64,000 nucleotides of DNA from Entophlyctis helioformis (lineage: Eukaryota > Chytridiomycota > Chytridiomycetes > Chytridiales > Chytriomycetaceae). A model generated the notes under the pieces. That model had not been told where the DNA came from and did not search any database. It saw nothing but the letters and a program-made list of their open reading frames with translations. The position numbers and the translations under genes are program-made. Numbering within the stretch: position 1 is the stretch's first letter; every line of letters begins with the position of its first letter. Below are positions 30,649 to 40,521 of this stretch, piece by piece. The DNA is taken from assembly GCA_025526915.1 (NCBI GenBank), contig JAHLKH010000116.1, positions 21,765 to 85,764 of the forward strand, written 5' to 3'.

Positions 30649-30901
30649 CCTAGTGATCTGACTCTAGTGGCAATAGGGCGAGGGAATGCCGGCAAACCGC
30701 CGGCAAATGGCCCGACATTCAAACAATTACCAAGCGTTTTGGAATTGGATTCGACCCGAGAGGCGACGGATGCAAGCGAGCACATCACACGATGGAAGGT
30801 TCGAGTCAGCAGCGAGCAGGCGACGACAGGCGGGCGAGGCACATCCAACGAGATGCTCACCTTGCACCATTGTTTGAATAATGATGTGATAAAGTGACCC
30901 G

Positions 30902-33900
30902 TTAGGTCGATCGGGAGGTGCCCCGATTCAAAGTGTTGGTGGTTGTGCTGGAAGTCAGAGCACGTGGAGTGGCACTTGACTTGCTGGCACGCTGTCTGCG
31001 TGTTGGACGCTGCTGGACGACAGGCGGATCTGGTGCTGGAGGCTGCTGGACGACAGGCGGATCGACTGGCGTGTGCGTCAAGTAGAGCGGCCGTTGTCCA
31101 AAGAGCAGATGCTCCAGTGCAACCATTCCGATGTTGGTGGCTCCAAGCACATCGCGGTGGTAGACAGTCTCGCAGTCTGTGCACTCGTAGCGTCGCAGGT
31201 TGGTGCGGTTCTTGTATGGGATCCGCTGCTTGCACTGCGGGCACATCTGGCTGGTCAGGTTCTCGTTGCAGCGGTAGATCTGTGTGTGTGTGTGTGTGCA
31301 TGATCGTGTGTCAGTTGGTGCACAGATGGATGGATGGATGGACAGCGTGGCATCAGACGCACATAGGCATATCCAGACGACCGCAGATGCCTGATGAGAA
31401 ACTTCTCAAACACAGCGTGCCTGCCACCTTGGCCTGTAAAGTCGATGCCAAATGCCCACACAACGGGAATGTCCTTCTCTGGGTTGCCGACAGGGAGGCC
31501 TTGAGATGCATCGGATGCGCGCTTGCCAGTGGTCGATCCTGCCAGCTTCATGATGCCCTCAAGAGCCTGTCCGCGATCTGACATGCGCTTGCAGCGCATG
31601 GCAAACCGCTTGTCCTTGACCTTCTGTGGAATGCCATGCCATGCCATGCCGTCCAGTGTGATCAGCAGGCAATCAAGCAGCATGGCGGCTGTGCCAATGG
31701 GCATCCAGAACCAGAGAAAATGTACCCGTGCATTCAGGAATGGCGAGCAGTACGCATGGCAGCGCAGATCCCAAAAGGCTCTCTCGCCTGCTGTGGCGTT
31801 TGGATCGGCATGCTTTGCTGTCTTGAATGCAATGGCCTCGTGGACGTCCGCAGCCTTGGCATATCGATTGTTGAGCCTGGCACAAGAGGCAGGCACTGTG
31901 AGTTGATCTGGTCAAGAGTGCACATGGCAGAGTCATTGCATGCATACCACCGCTGAAAGATGCGCTCAGCATGAAATACGCCAGAGGAGAGCACGTAGTT
32001 GGCCTCGAGCGTGTATGTCTCCTCCTTGACATTGACTAGCATGCTGGACGCACCAAACAGGTACCTTTCGCCCCAGTCAAAACTGACAACGTGAACAGTC
32101 TGGTAGCCTTGGTCGGTGAGCAGCTTGTTGGCATCAGCAACATCGGGCAGTCGCTGCGAGGCGTAAAAGTTGCACTTGACCTGTCATGCCATGGCATGAG
32201 TGAGGAATGTGCAATGCATGTGCACCAATGCGCGAGGTTGGCATGCAAGTGGCTTACAGGATTGGGCGTGTATGGCTTGGCGGCTGATGAGTCGGCTGGA
32301 TTGGCGGCTGTGGATGGCATGTCAGTCGGTGTGGACAACAAGTACGCGTCTGGATTGGCACAGCAACTCACATTCGCCATCAAGGCTATCATCCAAGTCA
32401 TCATCCAAGTCATCATCCAAGTCATCATCCAAGTCATCGTCAGAATCAGAGTCATCAGCATCCTCAACCTGACTGGGCTGCTCGTCTGAAGTCGCCGCGC
32501 TGGGACCTGCAGAGCAAGGCAGTGGTCAGAATCAATGCGTGCACCACAGCATCCAAGCACGCCACATACTGCGAGGCGACTTTGGACGGTTTGTGCGAAA
32601 CTCCAGAACAGTTTGAAAGACACTCTTCCCGTCGGTCTTGATGCTGCCAAATCTGACCGACTTGGTTGGTAGCACTTGAGGAAGAGCATCAACCTCGGCC
32701 TTGATCACGTCCACCGACTGCTTGTCGTCCAGTTGAAGATCGTCAGCCTTGGCTTCTTGTGTCACGTCCGCAGTTGCTCTGGCCTCTGCCGCGGTGTCGG
32801 CCGGGTCAATCTGCAACTTGGCCTGTGCTGGCGTTTGATAGCGCCGTGTATCAGAGGCGAGTCCAGGGAGGAGGAGATCCATGACGCACAGCTCATCACT
32901 TGAACTGAACGCCTTGTCGATGGCTTTGTTTGGCAATGCAAGCTCCAAGTCTTTCCAGTCAAGCTCTTTGAGAAGCCAGCCAGGCTCTTTGAGAAGAGTG
33001 GATTGTTAGCATCAAATCATAAAAAGATGGCATAGACAGGCAGTGTGACTGACTTATGGCAGCAAGAAGCTCCGATCTCAATGCTCGCAAGACGGGATCT
33101 TGTGACTTGCTGGTGCGATCCCTTTTCAGCCCCATAACCGCCCAGAAGAGGACGGTCTCGGTGATAAGAACAAAGGGATCACGACTTGCCGCCTGAGGAC
33201 AAAGCTTGATGCTCTCTCTTCCAGCGAGATCACGCAGTTGCTTGAAGCGTCCAACAGTTGACAGCGACATGTTGCGTATGATGGCCACGAGCTTGTGCAA
33301 TGCTGGCGGGGTCACGACAGCGCTCTTGTTCCCTGCGGTGCCCTTGGCGGCCGGCTTCTTGCCGCGTGCCTTCTTGGTCGCGCCGCTCTTGTCAGTGGCC
33401 GACGATGAGCTTGACGCGGTCTGCTCATGGCTTGCTGCAGGAGGGGTGGTGTCAAGATCAGCCGACGATGGGTTTGGCGCTGTACTCTTGCGCCTTGCTC
33501 TCTTGGGTTGTGTCGGGCTTGACGCGGCGTCCTCAGTGCTTGACGCCACACTCGTTTGTCTCCCTCTCTTGGCCGCCGATGGTCTTGGCGCGGTGTCCTT
33601 GGCAGCAGCAGCCTTGGCGGCCTTGTTGGCAGCAGGAGCCTTGGTGGCTTTGGCAGCAGCAGCCTTGGCGGCATCAGCTTCCTTGAACAGGGATTGAACC
33701 AACTCTTTCGCCTGCTCGCGAGACATTTCGGGAGCAAGCTTGATGGCTGCACCAACCGCCAGGTCGAATTGACTTCCAATGTAGTGCCGCGCGAGTATGG
33801 TGCTCACCTCTCTGGCGAGGTTGTTGAAGATGTCATCTGTTGCGCTCCCGCAGAGAGTGTTGTCCAGGCGGTATGGTAGAGCTGCCTGATACGTGACGTC

Positions 33901-36619
33901 CTCCTGCATGTCCGTCTGGATTGTGTCGGCCTGCTGCGCGCCATTCTTGTCCGCGTACATCTTGTCCGCACTGGCCTGCACCGTCCCGCGCGTCCATGCG
34001 CGGTGGATCATCAACTGCATGACAGTGACGACCCATGCATTGATCGTCTCCATCTTCAAATCTGGCTTGGCCATCTCCTTGCCGGTGAAAATGAACGACA
34101 GGTGGCGAAAGATGCAGGCCACAGTTGTCTCGCCGCCAGAGGTGCTGTTGATGAGTGCCGTGAACAGCTGGTTGGATGTCGGCACTGTTGGTGCTGCTGC
34201 TGCTGGCTGCTGAGGCTGCTGAGGCTGCTGAGGCTCGTCAGGTTGCTCGTGATCGTCAGGCTGCTCGTGAATGTTGGCATCCTCGTGAATGTCGGCATCC
34301 TCGGCGTCCTCAGGCTGCTCGGCGTCCTTTGACTCCTTGGCTATCTTAGGCTTCGTGACCTTCTTGGGCTTCTTGACCTTCTCAAACATAACGTGCTCGA
34401 GTCTTGTACCTGTCGCCAGTTGCACCGGATGTCCATACCGAGGCTCCTCGCTTTCGTGATTGTACAAACTCAAGCCGTACATGAGGCGGGCAGTGACGTC
34501 CTTTCCGAGGGTGAATCGACCCGAGAAGAGCTCCGCCTTGGTCACGCCGCCGAGGCAGTCGATGCTGGCATGGTCGCCGAGGTCGTCTGTCAGAGTTCCT
34601 GCTCGAGTGCAGCGAAGGCACAGGGAACTGCGGGTCTGCAACACAGACAGAGGGAGAGGAGCTGTCAGGCGACAGCGTCTGAGGCAGGCAAATGAATATG
34701 TATTGTAAGAAGTACCTGCAACACAGACAGAGGGAGAGGAGCTGTCAGGCGACAGCGTCTGAGGCAGGCAAATGAATAGAACAGCAAGGGAAAGGCAGAG
34801 ACGCAAGACATAGAGTTGGAAAAGCCAACAGACGATAATCTAACATCGTCGATACCCTTGAAGTCCAGGTCCAAGAAACAATACCGCGTCGTCTTGTCAT
34901 CGAGCCACTTGTACACGTGGTACTTGGGCGGGAGTGGCGCATCCGCGTTGAGATCAAGTAGCTCTTCGACGATGGCGCCAATCACGACGAACCCAGCATG
35001 CCGAACACCGACCGTGAACGAGTACACCTTTACAAATGTGTCCTCGATGATCAGACGCCGCGTCCATATCTTTGGCATCTTCCTGGCTTCGATGCCATAG
35101 ACCTTGGCGCTTCCTGGATCGCCCGACAACATTTTCTGTGCACCACGCCAACCTCTGAGTTAGTCCATGCAAAGCCATGCATGCAGGCAGAATGGCAATC
35201 CTAAATCGTACCTTAAGCAGCACTCTCGCGCCATGATGATCAGGCTCGTCCACGGCAGGCTGATCTGGCGCATCCACAGCAGGTTGATTGGTTGCTTGCT
35301 CTGCCGTTTGTTGATCATTGCTGCCGATCGCCGCAGAGAGGGACATGAGTGGCCCTGTAACAATGCGACCCAGCTTTCGAATCAGCAGATGTAGTGCCCA
35401 TCGTGAGCGACGCACAATTCTGCCAAAACACGTATGTCAGCAAGAGTACTCAAGGCAAATGGCACAGCATACATCACTTACCCCTGTCTCGAGCCACCAG
35501 GCAAACTACTGCGGGCAAAACGGCTCGACTTTCCCTTGTTTGCCTTGATGGCCCTCAGTGTCGCGGCCTTTGCAGCTTGCAATGCGCTACTCTTCATGAG
35601 CGCGGCCTCCTGCTTCTTTGTGAATTGAAGTCGTGGCTGTGGAGGTTGGATGCAGCATGAGCAATGCATTCCGAGTGCACACAATGCATATACAAGCGCC
35701 AATGGTACATCAGAACTAACCGTCGTCTTGGTGTCTAAATGTCGATTGAGAGAAAAGACCACGGGCTGTGCTTCTTCCACCTGAGCGTCAACAGAGGGCT
35801 GTGGTCGCTTACGCCGCTTGCGCCGCTTTGGAGGCCGAGCCTCCTGCCAATTGGAGAAATGAGTGATTGCGACAAGTCAGTACATGCACACACACAGTCA
35901 AGATGAAGACGCACCGAGGCTTCCTTGATGATCGACTCTAGCAGTTTGATGGCCTCGTTCAGCTGCTCGACAAGTGTCACTGATTCGCCATCCGTGCGAG
36001 ATTTCAGGTCGTTCAGCCGTTCGGTGGCCTTTCTGTGGATCTCGGCCAAGGATTTTTGGGGATCGTCCTGCTTGATGACCTTGCCTTTCTGCTTGCCTTT
36101 CTGCTTGCCTTTCTGCTTGCCTTTCTGCGTGCCTGGCTGCGTTTTTGGTTCTTGAATAGCACATTCAGCATAGAAGGTGTTGTCAGTACATGGCATCGAG
36201 TCATTCCAATGCAAGCCAAATGTACGTGGAGTTGAAATATCCTGAAAGGATACGCAGCAAGGATTCACAATTTTGCCCAGCTGCACCTTCATCCTCCGAG
36301 CTGCGCCCTGTCCAATGCACAGCGGATTGAGTTAGACAGTTCAAGGTGAGAGATGCACATGCATCCAAGTCATGCCATAACGTACATGTGTGTCCCAAAC
36401 AAGCCGATCAAGTCGACCAAGCTCTGCGTGTACTGTCGGTAAAAGGGATTGCTCACGGACAAGCTCCAACAGCTGCGCACTTGCTGTCCTGCTGATCTTG
36501 GCTAGAATGTCACGGCCTGCGACTCCATCGGGGTTGCGAGCAAGGTAACCTGGCACGTGCTTGACAATGCAGTCGAATGCAATCGGACATCGCTTGACCT
36601 CGTAAAAAGTTGTGGCCAT
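30902..36619 (-). CDS. Fanzor (eukaryotic TnpB-like) RNA-guided-nuclease homologue, multi-exon
   Basis: Thirteen exons with matching phases: 36386-36619, 35915-36307, 35721-35843, 35482-35636, 35212-35419, 34845-35135, 33054-34635, 32570-32986, 32372-32506, 32258-32307, 31948-32180, 31363-31876, 30902-31280. The C-terminal third shows the RuvC-like core of TnpB/Fanzor: RuvC-I Asp in VVSFDWGERYLF (codon 32076-32078), RuvC-II Glu in YRCNE (31263-31265), a four-Cys zinc ribbon MCPQCKQR...YECTDCE, and RuvC-III Asp in YHRDVLGATNIG (31151-31153). The N-terminal part is rich in Lys, with NLS-like PPKRRKRRKRP and QKGK repeats and an acidic DDDL repeat. One extra T in a TTT run at about 31260-31262 breaks the frame between RuvC-II and the zinc ribbon; it may be an error or a disabling mutation. 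Fanzors use a guide RNA from the element's 3' end to cut DNA; none was identified here. The ATG at 36619 may be internal to a longer gene (see FEN1-like gene). Confidence 0.75.
34636..34778 (-). repeat. tandem duplication of an intron 3' end including its acceptor
   Basis: A segment of about 62 bp (minus strand: ttcatttgcctgcctcag ... ctgtctgtgttgcag) occurs twice with an 80-bp period, at 34636-34697 and 34716-34778. Both copies end in a strong acceptor. The upstream copy reads ttgcag|gtacttct, an acceptor fused to a donor, so it could act as a zero-length exon. Confidence 0.8.
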
Positions 36620-36950
36620 TTCGCCGTTGTTGACAATCTTGTCAGGTGCCCGTCGATATCCTTCTGCGTCAGGTGCACAATTTCAGAGTCGGGATTGCGT
36701 TCTTGCCACTTGGAGTGTACAAGGAGGCAGCCAGCAGATGAGCATCTGCATCGCGATCCAACAATGACATCAAAGACAGGAACGCAGAGTCAGCAATGTG
36801 AGAGACTTCAAGAGATCGCATGCATGCGTACCTTGGTTGAGCCGCGGTGGTCGTGTTGGCAGCCTGGCTGCTGTCATTGCCACGTAGCAATGGATGGTCA
36901 GCATGGTGCTATGCATGCAAATGCATCTACAGTGCCACGTGCTTGGCCAG

Positions 36951-38338
36951 TCATGCAATGACTTGCCTCTGCCCTTGCACATCGCCAGATTGACCGTTGT
37001 TGCTGCTTGGGGCTTTGAACTGGCTGGCAATGTTTCCCGACTTGTCGTGGTACACGAAAACAGAGAAGGCATTGAGGAACGACTTGACGAGGTCCTCGCC
37101 TCCGATCGCCAACAACTCGTCAGAGTAGGCGGCCCTGACATCCTTCTTGAAGTCGCTGGCAATGTTGGGGGTGTGGAGCAGGACGCAGAACTCCTCCGGC
37201 GTGATATTCCTCTTGCGCGCCGCCTCCTCGACGTACCTGTTGACGGTGTTGACGGCAGTGCGCAGACCTGCAAGACGATGTGAGTAGCAACACGTGTTAG
37301 TCAACACCACAGTTTGGACGACAATACAGAGCATCAAGACAGGAATCGCACGCACCACGCCCGTAGCAATCAAAATAGTCACTCTTGCTCAATGCAACAA
37401 CAAGTTGGCAAGCTCCAGGGAATTCGTATACTCCGAGGGCAGACGCAAGAGATACGATGCCTGAATGGTTGAAAGACCGCAGGTTGGTGGCCTCCGCGTT
37501 CCGCATGGACATCATGATGACGGGACAACGTCCAGCACAGTGCGCGACGAGATCAGAGTCGTTACAAATGACGGCAATGGGAATGTCGCTGCTGCGAGAC
37601 AAAGACTGTTAGCCGTTGATCAACACAGACAGTTGCCATGGCGATCTATACCTTGGCTTGCTTGCATGGTAGGCTACATGGCGGGCAATGCAAACGTCCG
37701 CTTCGTGCTTGCACCAGCATACTGCACGCCACGGCTCAGACCTGTAGATCTCCGCGATCGCCTCGTAAATCAGCTGCTTGTCATTGTGCGTGAGCGTGAA
37801 CGAGAGCAGCAGCGCACGCTTCTCTTTCCTGGATCATTGACTGAGAGTTAGAATCGCCTCGATGCGGCAGGACAAAGTGGACATACTTGGATAAGCGCTT
37901 GTATCTCTTGCGTTTGCGGCGTCTGCGAATACACTGTAGAACTGTGCCCACCGCATTCAGGACCTTGATCGCACGGCCCTTGTGGACAATCTTAATCCCA
38001 GAGTCGCCAAGCCTGCCGTCAACGTGGAACATGTAGGCGTACTCGGGGCCAAACTTGTCCGTGAACGAGCTAAGTACCGGCTTGAGGATCGGTATCCACT
38101 CGGCCTTTGACAACGGGTGATCGGACCCTCCTCTCCTGAAGTGCGGAAAACACACACTCATCACATCGACAAGGAAGGCACCGCGGTTGCTGGGTGTGGC
38201 CGTGTTGGTGTCGTTTGGATCTTGTGACAGTCGTGCACTGCCAAGCACAAGCTTCGACACCAAGGACCAGGGCACGTCCTTGTGTACGCTGCCGCCGCCA
38301 TTCTCCACCACACACGAAACAACCGCAGAGACCCCCAT
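36951..38338 (-). CDS. FEN1/XPG-family structure-specific nuclease
   Basis: Exons 37887-38338, 37652-37828, 37356-37591 and 36951-37267, phases 2, 2, 1, about 390 residues. It starts MGVSAVVSCVV, the Met-Gly-Val start of FEN1-type nucleases. Counterparts of all seven FEN1 metal-binding carboxylates are present: D58 (FLVDVMS), D107 (FHVDGR), E193 and D195 (KHEADV), D221 and D223 (CNDSDLVAH), and D281 (SKSDYFDCYGRG), the last followed by the helix-hairpin-helix region GLRTAVNTVNRY. A very basic stretch (RRRRKRKRYKR) sits where the helical arch would be. It should cleave flap or branched DNA. The simplest stop is at 36951. Alternatively a GC-AG intron with donor AG|GCAAGT at 36966 continues into coding-like sequence (RNPDSEIVHL at about 36676-36705) and on into the Fanzor gene; this would make one fused double-nuclease gene. 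Confidence 0.72.
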
Positions 38339-38360
38339 GTCGTGCTCGCGTGTGCGCGGT

Positions 38361-38372
38361 TGTGCGTGTGTG

Positions 38373-38428
<56 letters not shown>

Positions 38429-38440
38429 TGGTTGTGCGTG
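38361..38440. repeat. GT/CA microsatellite
   Basis: About 80 bp of nearly pure tg dinucleotides with a few tgcg and tatg interruptions, directly upstream of the FEN1-like ATG at 38338. It is likely to be length-variable. Confidence 0.9.
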
Positions 38441-39219
38441 TATGGGGTTGCGTTATGGACAGGCAAGGGTGTGCTGAAGAGGGCAATGAGCGACAGGGAG
38501 TCTCGTCAAAAATGTATCAGTGTATGTGGATGGTCGAGCAACCACAGACGGGCCAACCGCTCTCTTTATGACAAACACAGCGGCCGTGTTGTTGCAACTG
38601 CCACAGATGATCACATCTGTGTGTCTGAGATTTGCAATGTTTGATTCATGATCAGTGGCACGTCACCAAAACGCGACCCAGGCACATGAACGCGTTGATC
38701 TGGAGTGTTGATTGCAAAAGATCACCATGCCTCATCCTCCACAAGCGCAGTCGTGGATGGCAAGCTGGCCTCGGCGGTGAGTCTGGCACGAGGTGTGTGC
38801 TCTTGTCGATGAGCATGCGCAGCTGGCTCGCCTTGATATCTGATCAGTTGACACCAAACTCAACTTGAATACTCATGGATACACAGTCACTCTGATCAGT
38901 GAACAGATGGCGTTGATGCAGCCCATCTTGGCTGTGGCGGCTTGATGGCCACTGGGCGGCACACCAAGGGCTCTCCTGCCTGTGGCAGTCTCAACTGGCA
39001 CCTGTTTGCATCCAGCCGGCACTCTTTTGCGTGCTGCAGAGACAACCGTGCCATAGCAGACCTGGATGCCTTGGTTGAATGAGCAACCAAAGACTTGCTT
39101 GATGCTCAACGGGGTTTGGGTGTTGGCATGGTAGCCACAGCACTGGTTGCCCATCCAGCCTTGTTCATAGGGTCCATGCCGCAGTTGGAATCACCAAGTG
39201 CGCATGGAATTGCTAGATC
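38441..39219. other. no confident gene upstream of the FEN1-like gene
   Basis: Several frames of 60-95 codons exist on both strands. One on the minus strand (38873-39154, ending RVTVYP) reads somewhat like protein (SIKQVFGCSFNQGIQVCYG), but I cannot join it to a complete exon structure. It may be a decayed exon of a mobile or multigene element. Confidence 0.3.
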
Positions 39220-39579
39220 TCATCCGTGTGAATACCTCCAGCCTGATGCCCAGCCCTCCTTTGTGCTCTGAGCAGTACTGAGATGCGCCATATCACTATC
39301 CGGCTCTTTGGAACAGAGATTGCCAACCAGTGCCATGACAATCCTCCAATCTTTGACCGAGTAGTCATCCCAGATCTCACAAATGTGTCGCACTTTCTTG
39401 TGATGATGGTGCAAGGCAAGTTTCTCCTTGGGCACAGTGTCTTCATTGCCGACTTTGGATGCTGTTGACTTCAGTCGCCAGCAGGTCTGGGACGACTTGT
39501 TCTTTGCAGCCTGCAGTCGATCAGCCCTTTGTTGTTGACCGAGACTGTGCATGCTGCTCGTCATTGCATTTGCGGGCAT
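39220..39579 (-). CDS. hypothetical protein or exon remnant
   Basis: A frame of 119 residues starting MPANAMTSSMHSLGQQQRAD and ending KEGWASGWRYSHG. It has mixed composition like a soluble helical protein (CEIWDDYSVKDWRIVMALVG) but no domain I recognise. It might be an exon of a larger gene with a donor at GG|TATTC near its end. Kept at low confidence. Confidence 0.3.
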   Translation of the reverse strand: MPANAMTSSMHSLGQQQRADRLQAAKNKSSQTCWRLKSTASKVGNEDTVPKEKLALHHHHKKVRHICEIWDDYSVKDWRIVMALVGNLCSKEPDSDMAHLSTAQSTKEGWASGWRYSHG

Positions 39580-39742
39580 GCTGACAAGTCAGGTGGGCGT
39601 GGCTGTTGGCTGTGGATGACGGGGTGCGACGACATCGTGCCTTGAATGAATGACATGTTGATTATCTGCGCTGCTGGCTGTTGCAAAGACACTCGTCGCT
39701 GTGACCTTGCTGTCTACACCAAGGCAGCCAGGGCAGGTTGAC

Positions 39743-40330
39743 ATGAGTGTGAGCAGGATTGCTGCAGGCATTCTGTGTGTATCGCCTCGACAGTTCTCAA
39801 AGTCAGACCAAGCCAAGCGCGATGCCTTACAGCAGCTTGATGATACGCAGCAGCTCAACGATACGCCGAGTGATCCATCCATGACCTCGTTGGTGAGCTC
39901 GTCTGCCTCTTGTGCGATGGCTGTCAACAGTTGCGACTCTGTTGACACTGTGTGCCTTGCCAATCTCAACGACAACAAGGACCTTGCAGGCGAGCCTGGA
40001 CAGCCAGCCGTTGCTGCAGCTGCCACGCCAACAGCCAGCCGCCAAAGAGCACCAAGCAAGCGGAAGAGAGCAGCAGCAGATGCCAGTGCGTCTGTGTCGC
40101 CTGTGACGTCGCCTGTTCGGACATTGCAGCAGGCCGCCCCAGCAGCACACACAAGAGGGCCGCCTGGAGGCAGAGGGGCAGCAGCCGCAACAGACAGTCG
40201 CACGACAGTTCTTGGTGACACTACCAACATGCAACCAACTGCTGCCCCTTGGACAGGCTCAGCAGTCCACAAGCAAGCGTCAAAGCGGGCACGACTTGAG
40301 AAGGCATCGCCTGCAGGCTGCTCAAAGTGA
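39743..40330 (+). CDS. hypothetical Ser/Ala-rich nuclear-type protein
   Basis: Single frame of 195 residues from the ATG at 39743 (MSVSRIAAGILCVSPRQF). The second half is disordered and carries two basic clusters resembling nuclear localisation signals, PSKRKRAAAD and SKRARLEK. No domain is recognised. An upstream exon is possible because the frame stays open to about 39701. The downstream AT-rich sequence (ttggaaattggatgcc) separates it from the MFS transporter start at 40522. Confidence 0.4.
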   Translation: MSVSRIAAGILCVSPRQFSKSDQAKRDALQQLDDTQQLNDTPSDPSMTSLVSSSASCAMAVNSCDSVDTVCLANLNDNKDLAGEPGQPAVAAAATPTASRQRAPSKRKRAAADASASVSPVTSPVRTLQQAAPAAHTRGPPGGRGAAAATDSRTTVLGDTTNMQPTAAPWTGSAVHKQASKRARLEKASPAGCSK

Positions 40331-40521
40331 CTGGGAATTCGGACAAGAATATGAAATTGGATTCAAAAAGATTGGAAATTGGATGCCAAATTGAACAAAA
40401 TTCGAGGCAAACCAGCCGACCAATCAGGTGCCGGCACAGGGCTCTCTATGGGAAAAACACAGAATTACCTGCAATAAATACACGCGAGCGTGTGCGATCC
40501 CGGCCTTTGGTGGAAACAAAC

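Follow-up and report, generated by a model that had tools for sequence, protein, structure and literature searches.

A repeated element in the chytrid Entophlyctis helioformis predicted to encode a FEN1-like 5' nuclease fused to a Fanzor/TnpB-type nuclease

Results and discussion

A multicopy element with two nuclease parts

The window analysed here, a stretch of 64,000 nucleotides from the chytrid Entophlyctis helioformis (contig JAHLKH010000116.1, positions 21,765 to 85,764), carries one copy of a repeated element whose minus-strand gene appears to join a FEN1-like 5' nuclease to a Fanzor/TnpB-type nuclease. Searches of the 29.57-Mb genome put the copy number well over 100: 1 kb from the Fanzor side gave at least 57 matches, the FEN1-side part at least 44, and a 22-base motif from the 3' end of the conserved 3' segment occurs at 182 sites with up to two mismatches (reversed control, 0). 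An earlier, sequence-only reading of the window had placed the pair at 30902..38338. Both nuclease parts do lie there, but comparison with other copies extends the element to 30,669-40,472, or about 9.8 kb. The spliced model runs from an ATG at 38338 to a stop at 30902 through 19 exons in the window copy, with exon phases that are consistent throughout save for one base missing near 36,644. The parts needed for the argument are these:

30669-40472, minus strand: whole element in this copy, delimited by homology to other copies
38338-37887, 37828-37652, 37591-37356 and 37267-36967, minus strand: FEN1-like 5'-nuclease domain, exons 1-4 (spliced gene model, carboxylates, fold matches, dN/dS)
36868-36966, minus strand: intron 4, with a GC donor (AG/GCAAGT at 36966); if it is retained the FEN1-like frame stops at 36951 (copy comparison)
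36832-36867, minus strand: mini-exon 5, 36 nt with 11 whole codons, frame kept against four copies
36386-36745, minus strand: link exon 6, continuous from the FEN1 side to the Fanzor side; this copy lacks one base near 36644
32570-36307, minus strand: middle region, exons 7-13, with low-complexity stretches and no domain recognised
32180-31948, 31876-31726, 31623-31363 and 31279-30902, minus strand: Fanzor/TnpB-type RuvC and zinc ribbon, exons 16-19 (PF07282, signature residues)
30709-30901, minus strand: conserved 3' non-coding segment, the expected site of a guide (omega) RNA scaffold (13-copy alignment)

The FEN1-like part

Spliced exons 1-4 hold seven carboxylates in order, within LVD (one Asp), FHVDG (one), HEADVCIAR (Glu and Asp), NDSDL (two) and SDYF (one), as the sequence-only reading had noticed, and relatives keep all seven wherever their sequence covers them. 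We take this series to be a signature of the FEN-like 5' nuclease superfamily. The ratio of nonsynonymous to synonymous substitution rates (dN/dS) in exons 1-4 is 0.16-0.73 against four other copies (L022, L024, L028 and L038), with one value undefined by saturation. A first fold model (predicted local distance difference test, pLDDT, 48.1) gave a best Foldseek expectation value (E) of 0.016; with a second, low-confidence model, the first 27 rows all belonged to the FEN-like superfamily (best E 3.6e-4).

Several results weigh against this identification. The second model has a mean pLDDT of 57.9 and a predicted template modelling score (pTM) of 0.41, and the TM-scores of its matches are only about 0.3-0.4. 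Profile comparison with host FEN1/EXO1/RAD2 gave P 0.019 and a probability of 2.5%. The best curated-family match was XPG_I_2 (PF12813; E 0.0047, with 3 of 11 members matching), against which the public gene model P0001 scored 13.9 bits (cut-off 24.2), and no curated XPG/FEN model passed. A Pfam scan of the spliced FEN part of the window returned no family, PHROGs and NCBIfam scans of this part nothing convincing, and a sequence search of solved structures no useful match for either nuclease part. Two protein database searches with the FEN-like part returned proteins of E. helioformis only and no second species. Like the host FEN1, EXO1 and XPG nucleases (genes at L096, L095 and L094), the FEN-like part has the same carboxylate order and a fold match; unlike them, it passes no curated family model and shows weak profile similarity. 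Because no curated family model passed, we do not file it in the FEN1, EXO1 or XPG family, and it appears assignable at the superfamily level only.

Chains of XRN1, XRN2 and Rat1 are among the fold matches, and tethering to a guided nuclease would presumably place the FEN-like domain beside its RNA. The domain might, then, be a relative of the XRN/FEN folds that acts on RNA, trimming the 5' end of the element's guide RNA with no part in DNA repair. FEN1, EXO1, and plastid and bacterial 5' nucleases rank at least equally high among the same matches, however, and we consider a role confined to RNA quite improbable.

The Fanzor/TnpB-type part

The RuvC/zinc-ribbon protein that the sequence-only reading saw on the same strand passes the OrfB/TNB zinc ribbon model PF07282 (E 1.4e-11, 44.8 bits, cut-off 26.3), and its last exon alone reaches E 2.7e-10; NCBIfam guided_TnpB matches at E 1e-6, below its cut-off. 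The motif given by Bao and Jurka for Fanzor/TnpB proteins, D-X(125,275)-[TS]-[TS]-X-X-C4 zinc finger-X(5,50)-RD (PMC3627910), is present as D42, 188 residues, T231 S232, C235 C238 C255 C258 and R264 D265 in a four-copy alignment (A4), and the signature residues are conserved in all four copies. As described for Fanzors, an alternative RuvC-II glutamate lies six residues before the zinc finger, and a DPG at RuvC-I is nearly exclusive to them (PMC10711439). The glutamate is found here at E228, six residues ahead of C235, in 4 of 4 copies of A4. RuvC-I, in contrast, reads DWG rather than DPG in six of six copies, which weighs against a Fanzor assignment; for this reason we use the name Fanzor/TnpB-type and do not file the protein as Fanzor1 or Fanzor2. 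The C-terminal part is thus predicted to be a TnpB-family nuclease with a Fanzor-like rearranged site.

From the first possible separate Fanzor start, ATG 36619, the window copy reads 1,536 residues to its end with no internal stop. With this query, which includes the RuvC part, no public protein was found at E 0.001, not even from E. helioformis, among candidates of 0.55-1.75 times its length; ordinary-size Fanzors could not appear under that length limit. No public gene model of the whole Fanzor side was seen in the same search, and viral contigs searched with the RuvC part gave no relative.

A joint frame across the two nucleases

The sequence-only reading had put the Fanzor gene about 300 bp after the FEN1 part on the same strand. 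The strand is right, but the Fanzor-proximal frame seems to carry on the FEN1-like frame and not to belong to a gene of its own. As that reading proposed, the space between is coding-like: the donor AG/GCAAGT at 36966, the 36-nt exon at 36867-36832 and the exon at 36745-36386 are in place, and the phases fit. When the window is compared with L022, L024, L028 and L038, the shared frame contains the final stop only, over 1,750-1,884 comparable codons per pair (codons compared by alignment, so that a frameshift within a copy does not appear as a stop), and most exons contain stops in the two alternative frames. The dN/dS of exon 6 is 0.24-0.46 ahead of ATG 36619 and 0.33-0.48 after it. For the 17 introns common to the copies, the splice dinucleotides are conserved in position in 77 of the 85 intron-copy pairs (17 introns in L015, L022, L028, L038 and L040); four of the remaining eight have an AG three bases off, at introns 2 and 4. 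The public gene model P0005 splices the FEN1 C-terminus to the link exon across introns 4 and 5, and with P0005 as query, among the matches listed, 43 of 45 link-exon matches lie downstream of a FEN1 C-terminal match on the same strand, in 42 cases no more than 450 bp away. Given the stop-free shared frame, the dN/dS below 1 ahead of ATG 36619, the mostly conserved splice sites and P0005, a fusion of about 1,980 residues, including the part ahead of ATG 36619, is predicted as the best gene model.

The copy in the window is itself frame-broken. The sequence-only reading had suspected a base missing from a GGG run; a base is indeed absent near 36,644 and present in 14 of 14 other aligned copies, but the site is five bases beyond the run, not inside it. 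Copies without this lesion therefore exist, although one of the 14, L009, has two further one-base gaps nearby.

Against the fusion stand a number of observations. Frameshifts occur in individual copies, as in old transposons, and in L015 and L038 the RuvC part is no longer in frame. L022 and L024 are close to the window from exon 8 on, so that their comparisons are informative chiefly for exons 1-7. Exon 5 has too few codons for selection to be judged, and dN/dS in exons 7-10 is 0.43-1.84; values above 1 also occur in exons 14, 15 and 19. In the reverse view, 44 of 105 FEN1 C-terminal matches have a link exon among the matches listed. When the joint frame of L040 was followed by eye through exons 4-6 the phases would not fit, and because of this and other shifts in that copy we do not count it for the fusion. 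In the public gene model P0001 the FEN1-like protein terminates at the stop reached by reading through intron 4, and the GC donors of this intron are weak.

These last points bear on whether one gene might yield two products, with retention of intron 4 giving a free FEN-like protein, splicing giving the fusion, and the ratio regulated by the element. Intron 4 is 98-99 nt long in five of six copies (72 in L040), and the GC donor of this GC-AG intron is kept in the window, L015, L022, L028 and L038; a similar short read-through tail (RQVIA or RQVLA) is found in the window, L022, L028, L038, L091 and P0001, the last annotated as just such a read-through product. The tail mostly repeats the splice donor, however, so its conservation may be the donor's, and L040 and L081 have GT donors and other tails. 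Regulated production of two proteins seems to us rather unlikely.

Recurrence of the pair and its mosaic history

A RuvC exon lies downstream on the same strand, within 16 kb, at no fewer than 87 of 145 FEN1-like loci, and at 77 of them the distance is 4.5-7.1 kb. The 87 is a lower bound, because some of the 58 unpaired loci show a partner on direct reading (C22 = L019 and C327 = L025). Among the matches listed, a RuvC match was upstream at one of the 145 loci and on the other strand at four. The side-by-side arrangement suggested from the window alone thus recurs in the same order and strand in other copies of this genome; the two protein searches with the FEN-like part yielded no other species. 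That the window copy is frame-broken and has atypical ends could speak for a chance neighbourhood or an assembly artefact, but the order and strand are the same and the spacing similar across dozens of contigs, even in lineages whose proteins are only about half alike. This refutes the idea within the present genome, and we give it next to no weight. With the stop-free frame, dN/dS, splice sites and P0005, the recurrence supports the earlier proposal of a two-nuclease mobile element, in particular a fusion frame.

Different parts of the gene show different degrees of relatedness. Lineages that approach saturation in their FEN1 parts still resemble each other in the RuvC exons and the 3' end: at four-fold sites, the window and L040 are 87% identical in exons 14-19 and 45% in exons 1-7. 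The window and L038 match at 95% over 1 kb of the 5' end, compared with 69% in their FEN1-side exons. Judging by such comparisons, modules have evidently been exchanged between lineages.

The conserved 3' segment

The roughly 190-nt segment beyond the stop codon is conserved, with 78% mean column identity across 13 copies of several lineages. Two results count against a structured guide RNA here: none of 49 predicted pairs in the consensus structure has a compensatory change, and folding z-scores against shuffles are 0.39, -1.43, -0.83 and -1.49, the window copy folding no better than its shuffles. An Rfam search of the segment gave no match. A AAGGTGAG motif within it (window 30863-30855, minus strand) resembles a splice donor past the stop codon.

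Ends, target sites and the question of a transposase

Homology at the 3' side ends at 30667-30669 in 16 of 17 copies compared, with L028 stopping at 30709, and at the 5' side it ends at 40472 in three copies with a GAGGGGCAGG-type end (L026, L031 and L035). The window copy lacks a few extra G/C-rich terminal bases at both ends that the other copies examined have: GAGGGG-type at the 5' end, and its inverse at the 3' end of A-type copies. Two further features belong here:

30669-30708, minus strand: 3' terminal hairpin and end sequence of A-type copies, absent from copies ending at GGGCC
38918-40472, minus strand: 5' region with no sign of coding (codon-position pattern, frame conservation, Pfam)

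A transposase or second gene in the 5' part was considered and rejected: compared with 12 other copies, several of them partial, variable sites show no clear preference for any codon position and the open frames are not kept, and five of these frames gave no Pfam match at E 0.5. Pfam scans of the element's frames recognised no transposase domain, that of Mutator-like elements (MULE) included, and the MULE transposase PF10551, the sole transposase family searched genome-wide, was not found in the genome at E 0.01. The middle-region exon frames and the first 555 residues from ATG 36619 likewise had no Pfam match over cut-off.

The fusion could instead be accessory cargo on an element that a cut-and-paste transposase, acting in trans, moves by its ends in the manner of MULEs. 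By eye, a 9-bp duplication is exact at C108 and matches at 8 of 9 positions at C235 and 8 of 10 at C95; these suggest a transposase acting in trans and count against the reading preferred below, and the inverted G-rich ends are as in MULE-like elements. A precedent exists in the Fanzor1 elements of Mucor, Rhizopus and Phycomyces (MCi-4, ROr-4, PBl-3 and MCi-2), which are described as having MuDR-like ends and 9-bp duplications with no MuDR transposase (PMC3627910). On the other side, no clear duplication was seen by eye in 7 of the 10 copies with both ends readable, the window included, and the search for the MULE domain was negative as given above. A transposase in trans is a serious alternative for how the element reaches new sites, one that we think quite possible while leaning away from it. 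Suspected long direct duplications beside the copies at C95 and C112 could not be confirmed.

A possible mechanism

The reading we prefer, and to which we give an even chance, is that of a DNA transposon whose sole recognisable gene encodes one protein, starting with a FEN1-like 5' nuclease and ending, after a long middle region, with a Fanzor/TnpB-type nuclease; a guided cut would be followed by 5' processing. An RNA transcribed through the conserved 3' end and on into the flank would direct the Fanzor part to cut an unoccupied target or a donor site. The tethered FEN-like domain would then trim 5' flaps or resect 5' ends at the break, and the exposed 3' ends would favour repair in which another copy or the sister chromatid serves as template and the element is copied. 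We infer for this a joint transcript, activity of either nuclease, a guide RNA and coupling of the two activities. The trimming step is proposed because FEN and EXO1 nucleases are known to trim and resect 5' ends. The guided-cut step is proposed because RNA-guided cutting was shown for a Spizellomyces Fanzor (PMC10432273). A stronger form, in which the element is transposase-free and self-sufficient, the fused protein's RNA-guided cut and built-in 5' resection being the copying engine of a eukaryotic homing-type element with an RNA guide, seems unlikely to us.

How Fanzors benefit their own elements is stated to be an open question in the account of the Spizellomyces enzyme (PMC10432273). If the preferred reading is true, the fusion gives a concrete, testable answer, namely a guided cut whose ends are then processed. 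A natural fusion of guided cutter and flap nuclease would also be of interest as a design seen in nature, and the many diverged lineages within one genome permit comparative tests.

Comparison with known elements

XPG-type nucleases are also carried by DNA transposons of the Academ group, a likeness to the present element; Academ elements differ from it in having their own transposase, and they are not known to carry a Fanzor. A search of the open-licence literature found no report of Academ with XPG, which does not amount to absence in print. A close described system is Spu-1, a Fanzor1 element of Spizellomyces punctatus with a locus of about 2.1 kb and a single open reading frame, Fz proteins being 400-700 residues long (PMC10432273). 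Similar to Spu-1, the element here has a chytrid host, many copies, inverted ends, a Fanzor-type nuclease, a conserved 3' end and no transposase recognised between its ends. Unlike Spu-1, for which that description gives no FEN-like domain, it has 17 shared introns and a model of about 1,980 residues, and RNA-guided cutting, shown for the Spizellomyces enzyme, is a prediction for it.

Like the zygomycete elements mentioned above, it combines a Fanzor-type protein with apparent 9-bp duplications in a few copies and no recognised MuDR transposase, and its mosaic structure recalls Mucor MCi-2, in which 3' parts are common and 5' parts differ; the passages on those elements mention no FEN-like nuclease (PMC3627910). 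The Mariner element PGv-1 encodes a transposase, an endonuclease and a Fanzor, and is thus similar in having a second nuclease beside the Fanzor. It differs in encoding three proteins, transposase included, and its endonuclease is not described there as FEN-like or fused (PMC3627910). Fanzor elements without their own transposase, and a Fanzor beside another endonuclease, are therefore already known (PMC3627910). What would be new, provided that the protein does exist in this form, is the fusion of a Fanzor-type protein with a FEN-like nuclease; no such fusion was found in the portion of the open-licence literature consulted, where absence is not absence in print.

Further observations

In many copies the 5' end reads GA and then a run of G whose length varies widely (for example L063, L065-L069, L071, L075 and L080). 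At L058 (C139:8745-8960) two elements follow each other in the same orientation, with about 23 bp between the 3' end of the first and the 5' end of the second. In copies with a plain GGGCC end (L028, L040, L044-L053 and L058-L060), AAG occurs by eye within the first nine flank bases in 13 of 15, and some of these right flanks are TATAAAG-like; the AAG is a possible target preference. A Fanzor-type zinc-ribbon fragment at L096 (1904-3010, minus strand) adjoins the host FEN1 gene on the other strand, probably by coincidence.

In most comparisons among the window, L015, L022, L028, L038 and L040, the introns across 37886-31280 are less diverged than four-fold sites in the exons around them; for the window and L038, for example, identity over exons 8-13 is 88% in introns and 63% at four-fold sites. 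The window copy has one intron more than the other copies, since intron 11 lies in an insertion specific to it:

34588-34845, minus strand: interspersed-repeat insertion of about 258 bp, not seen in other copies examined

This insertion has GT..AG intron-like ends and belongs to a family with 42 genome matches, the window's own included. Eight matches besides the window's own are 100% identical to it and occur on both strands; the family is a recently active short element, perhaps introner-like.

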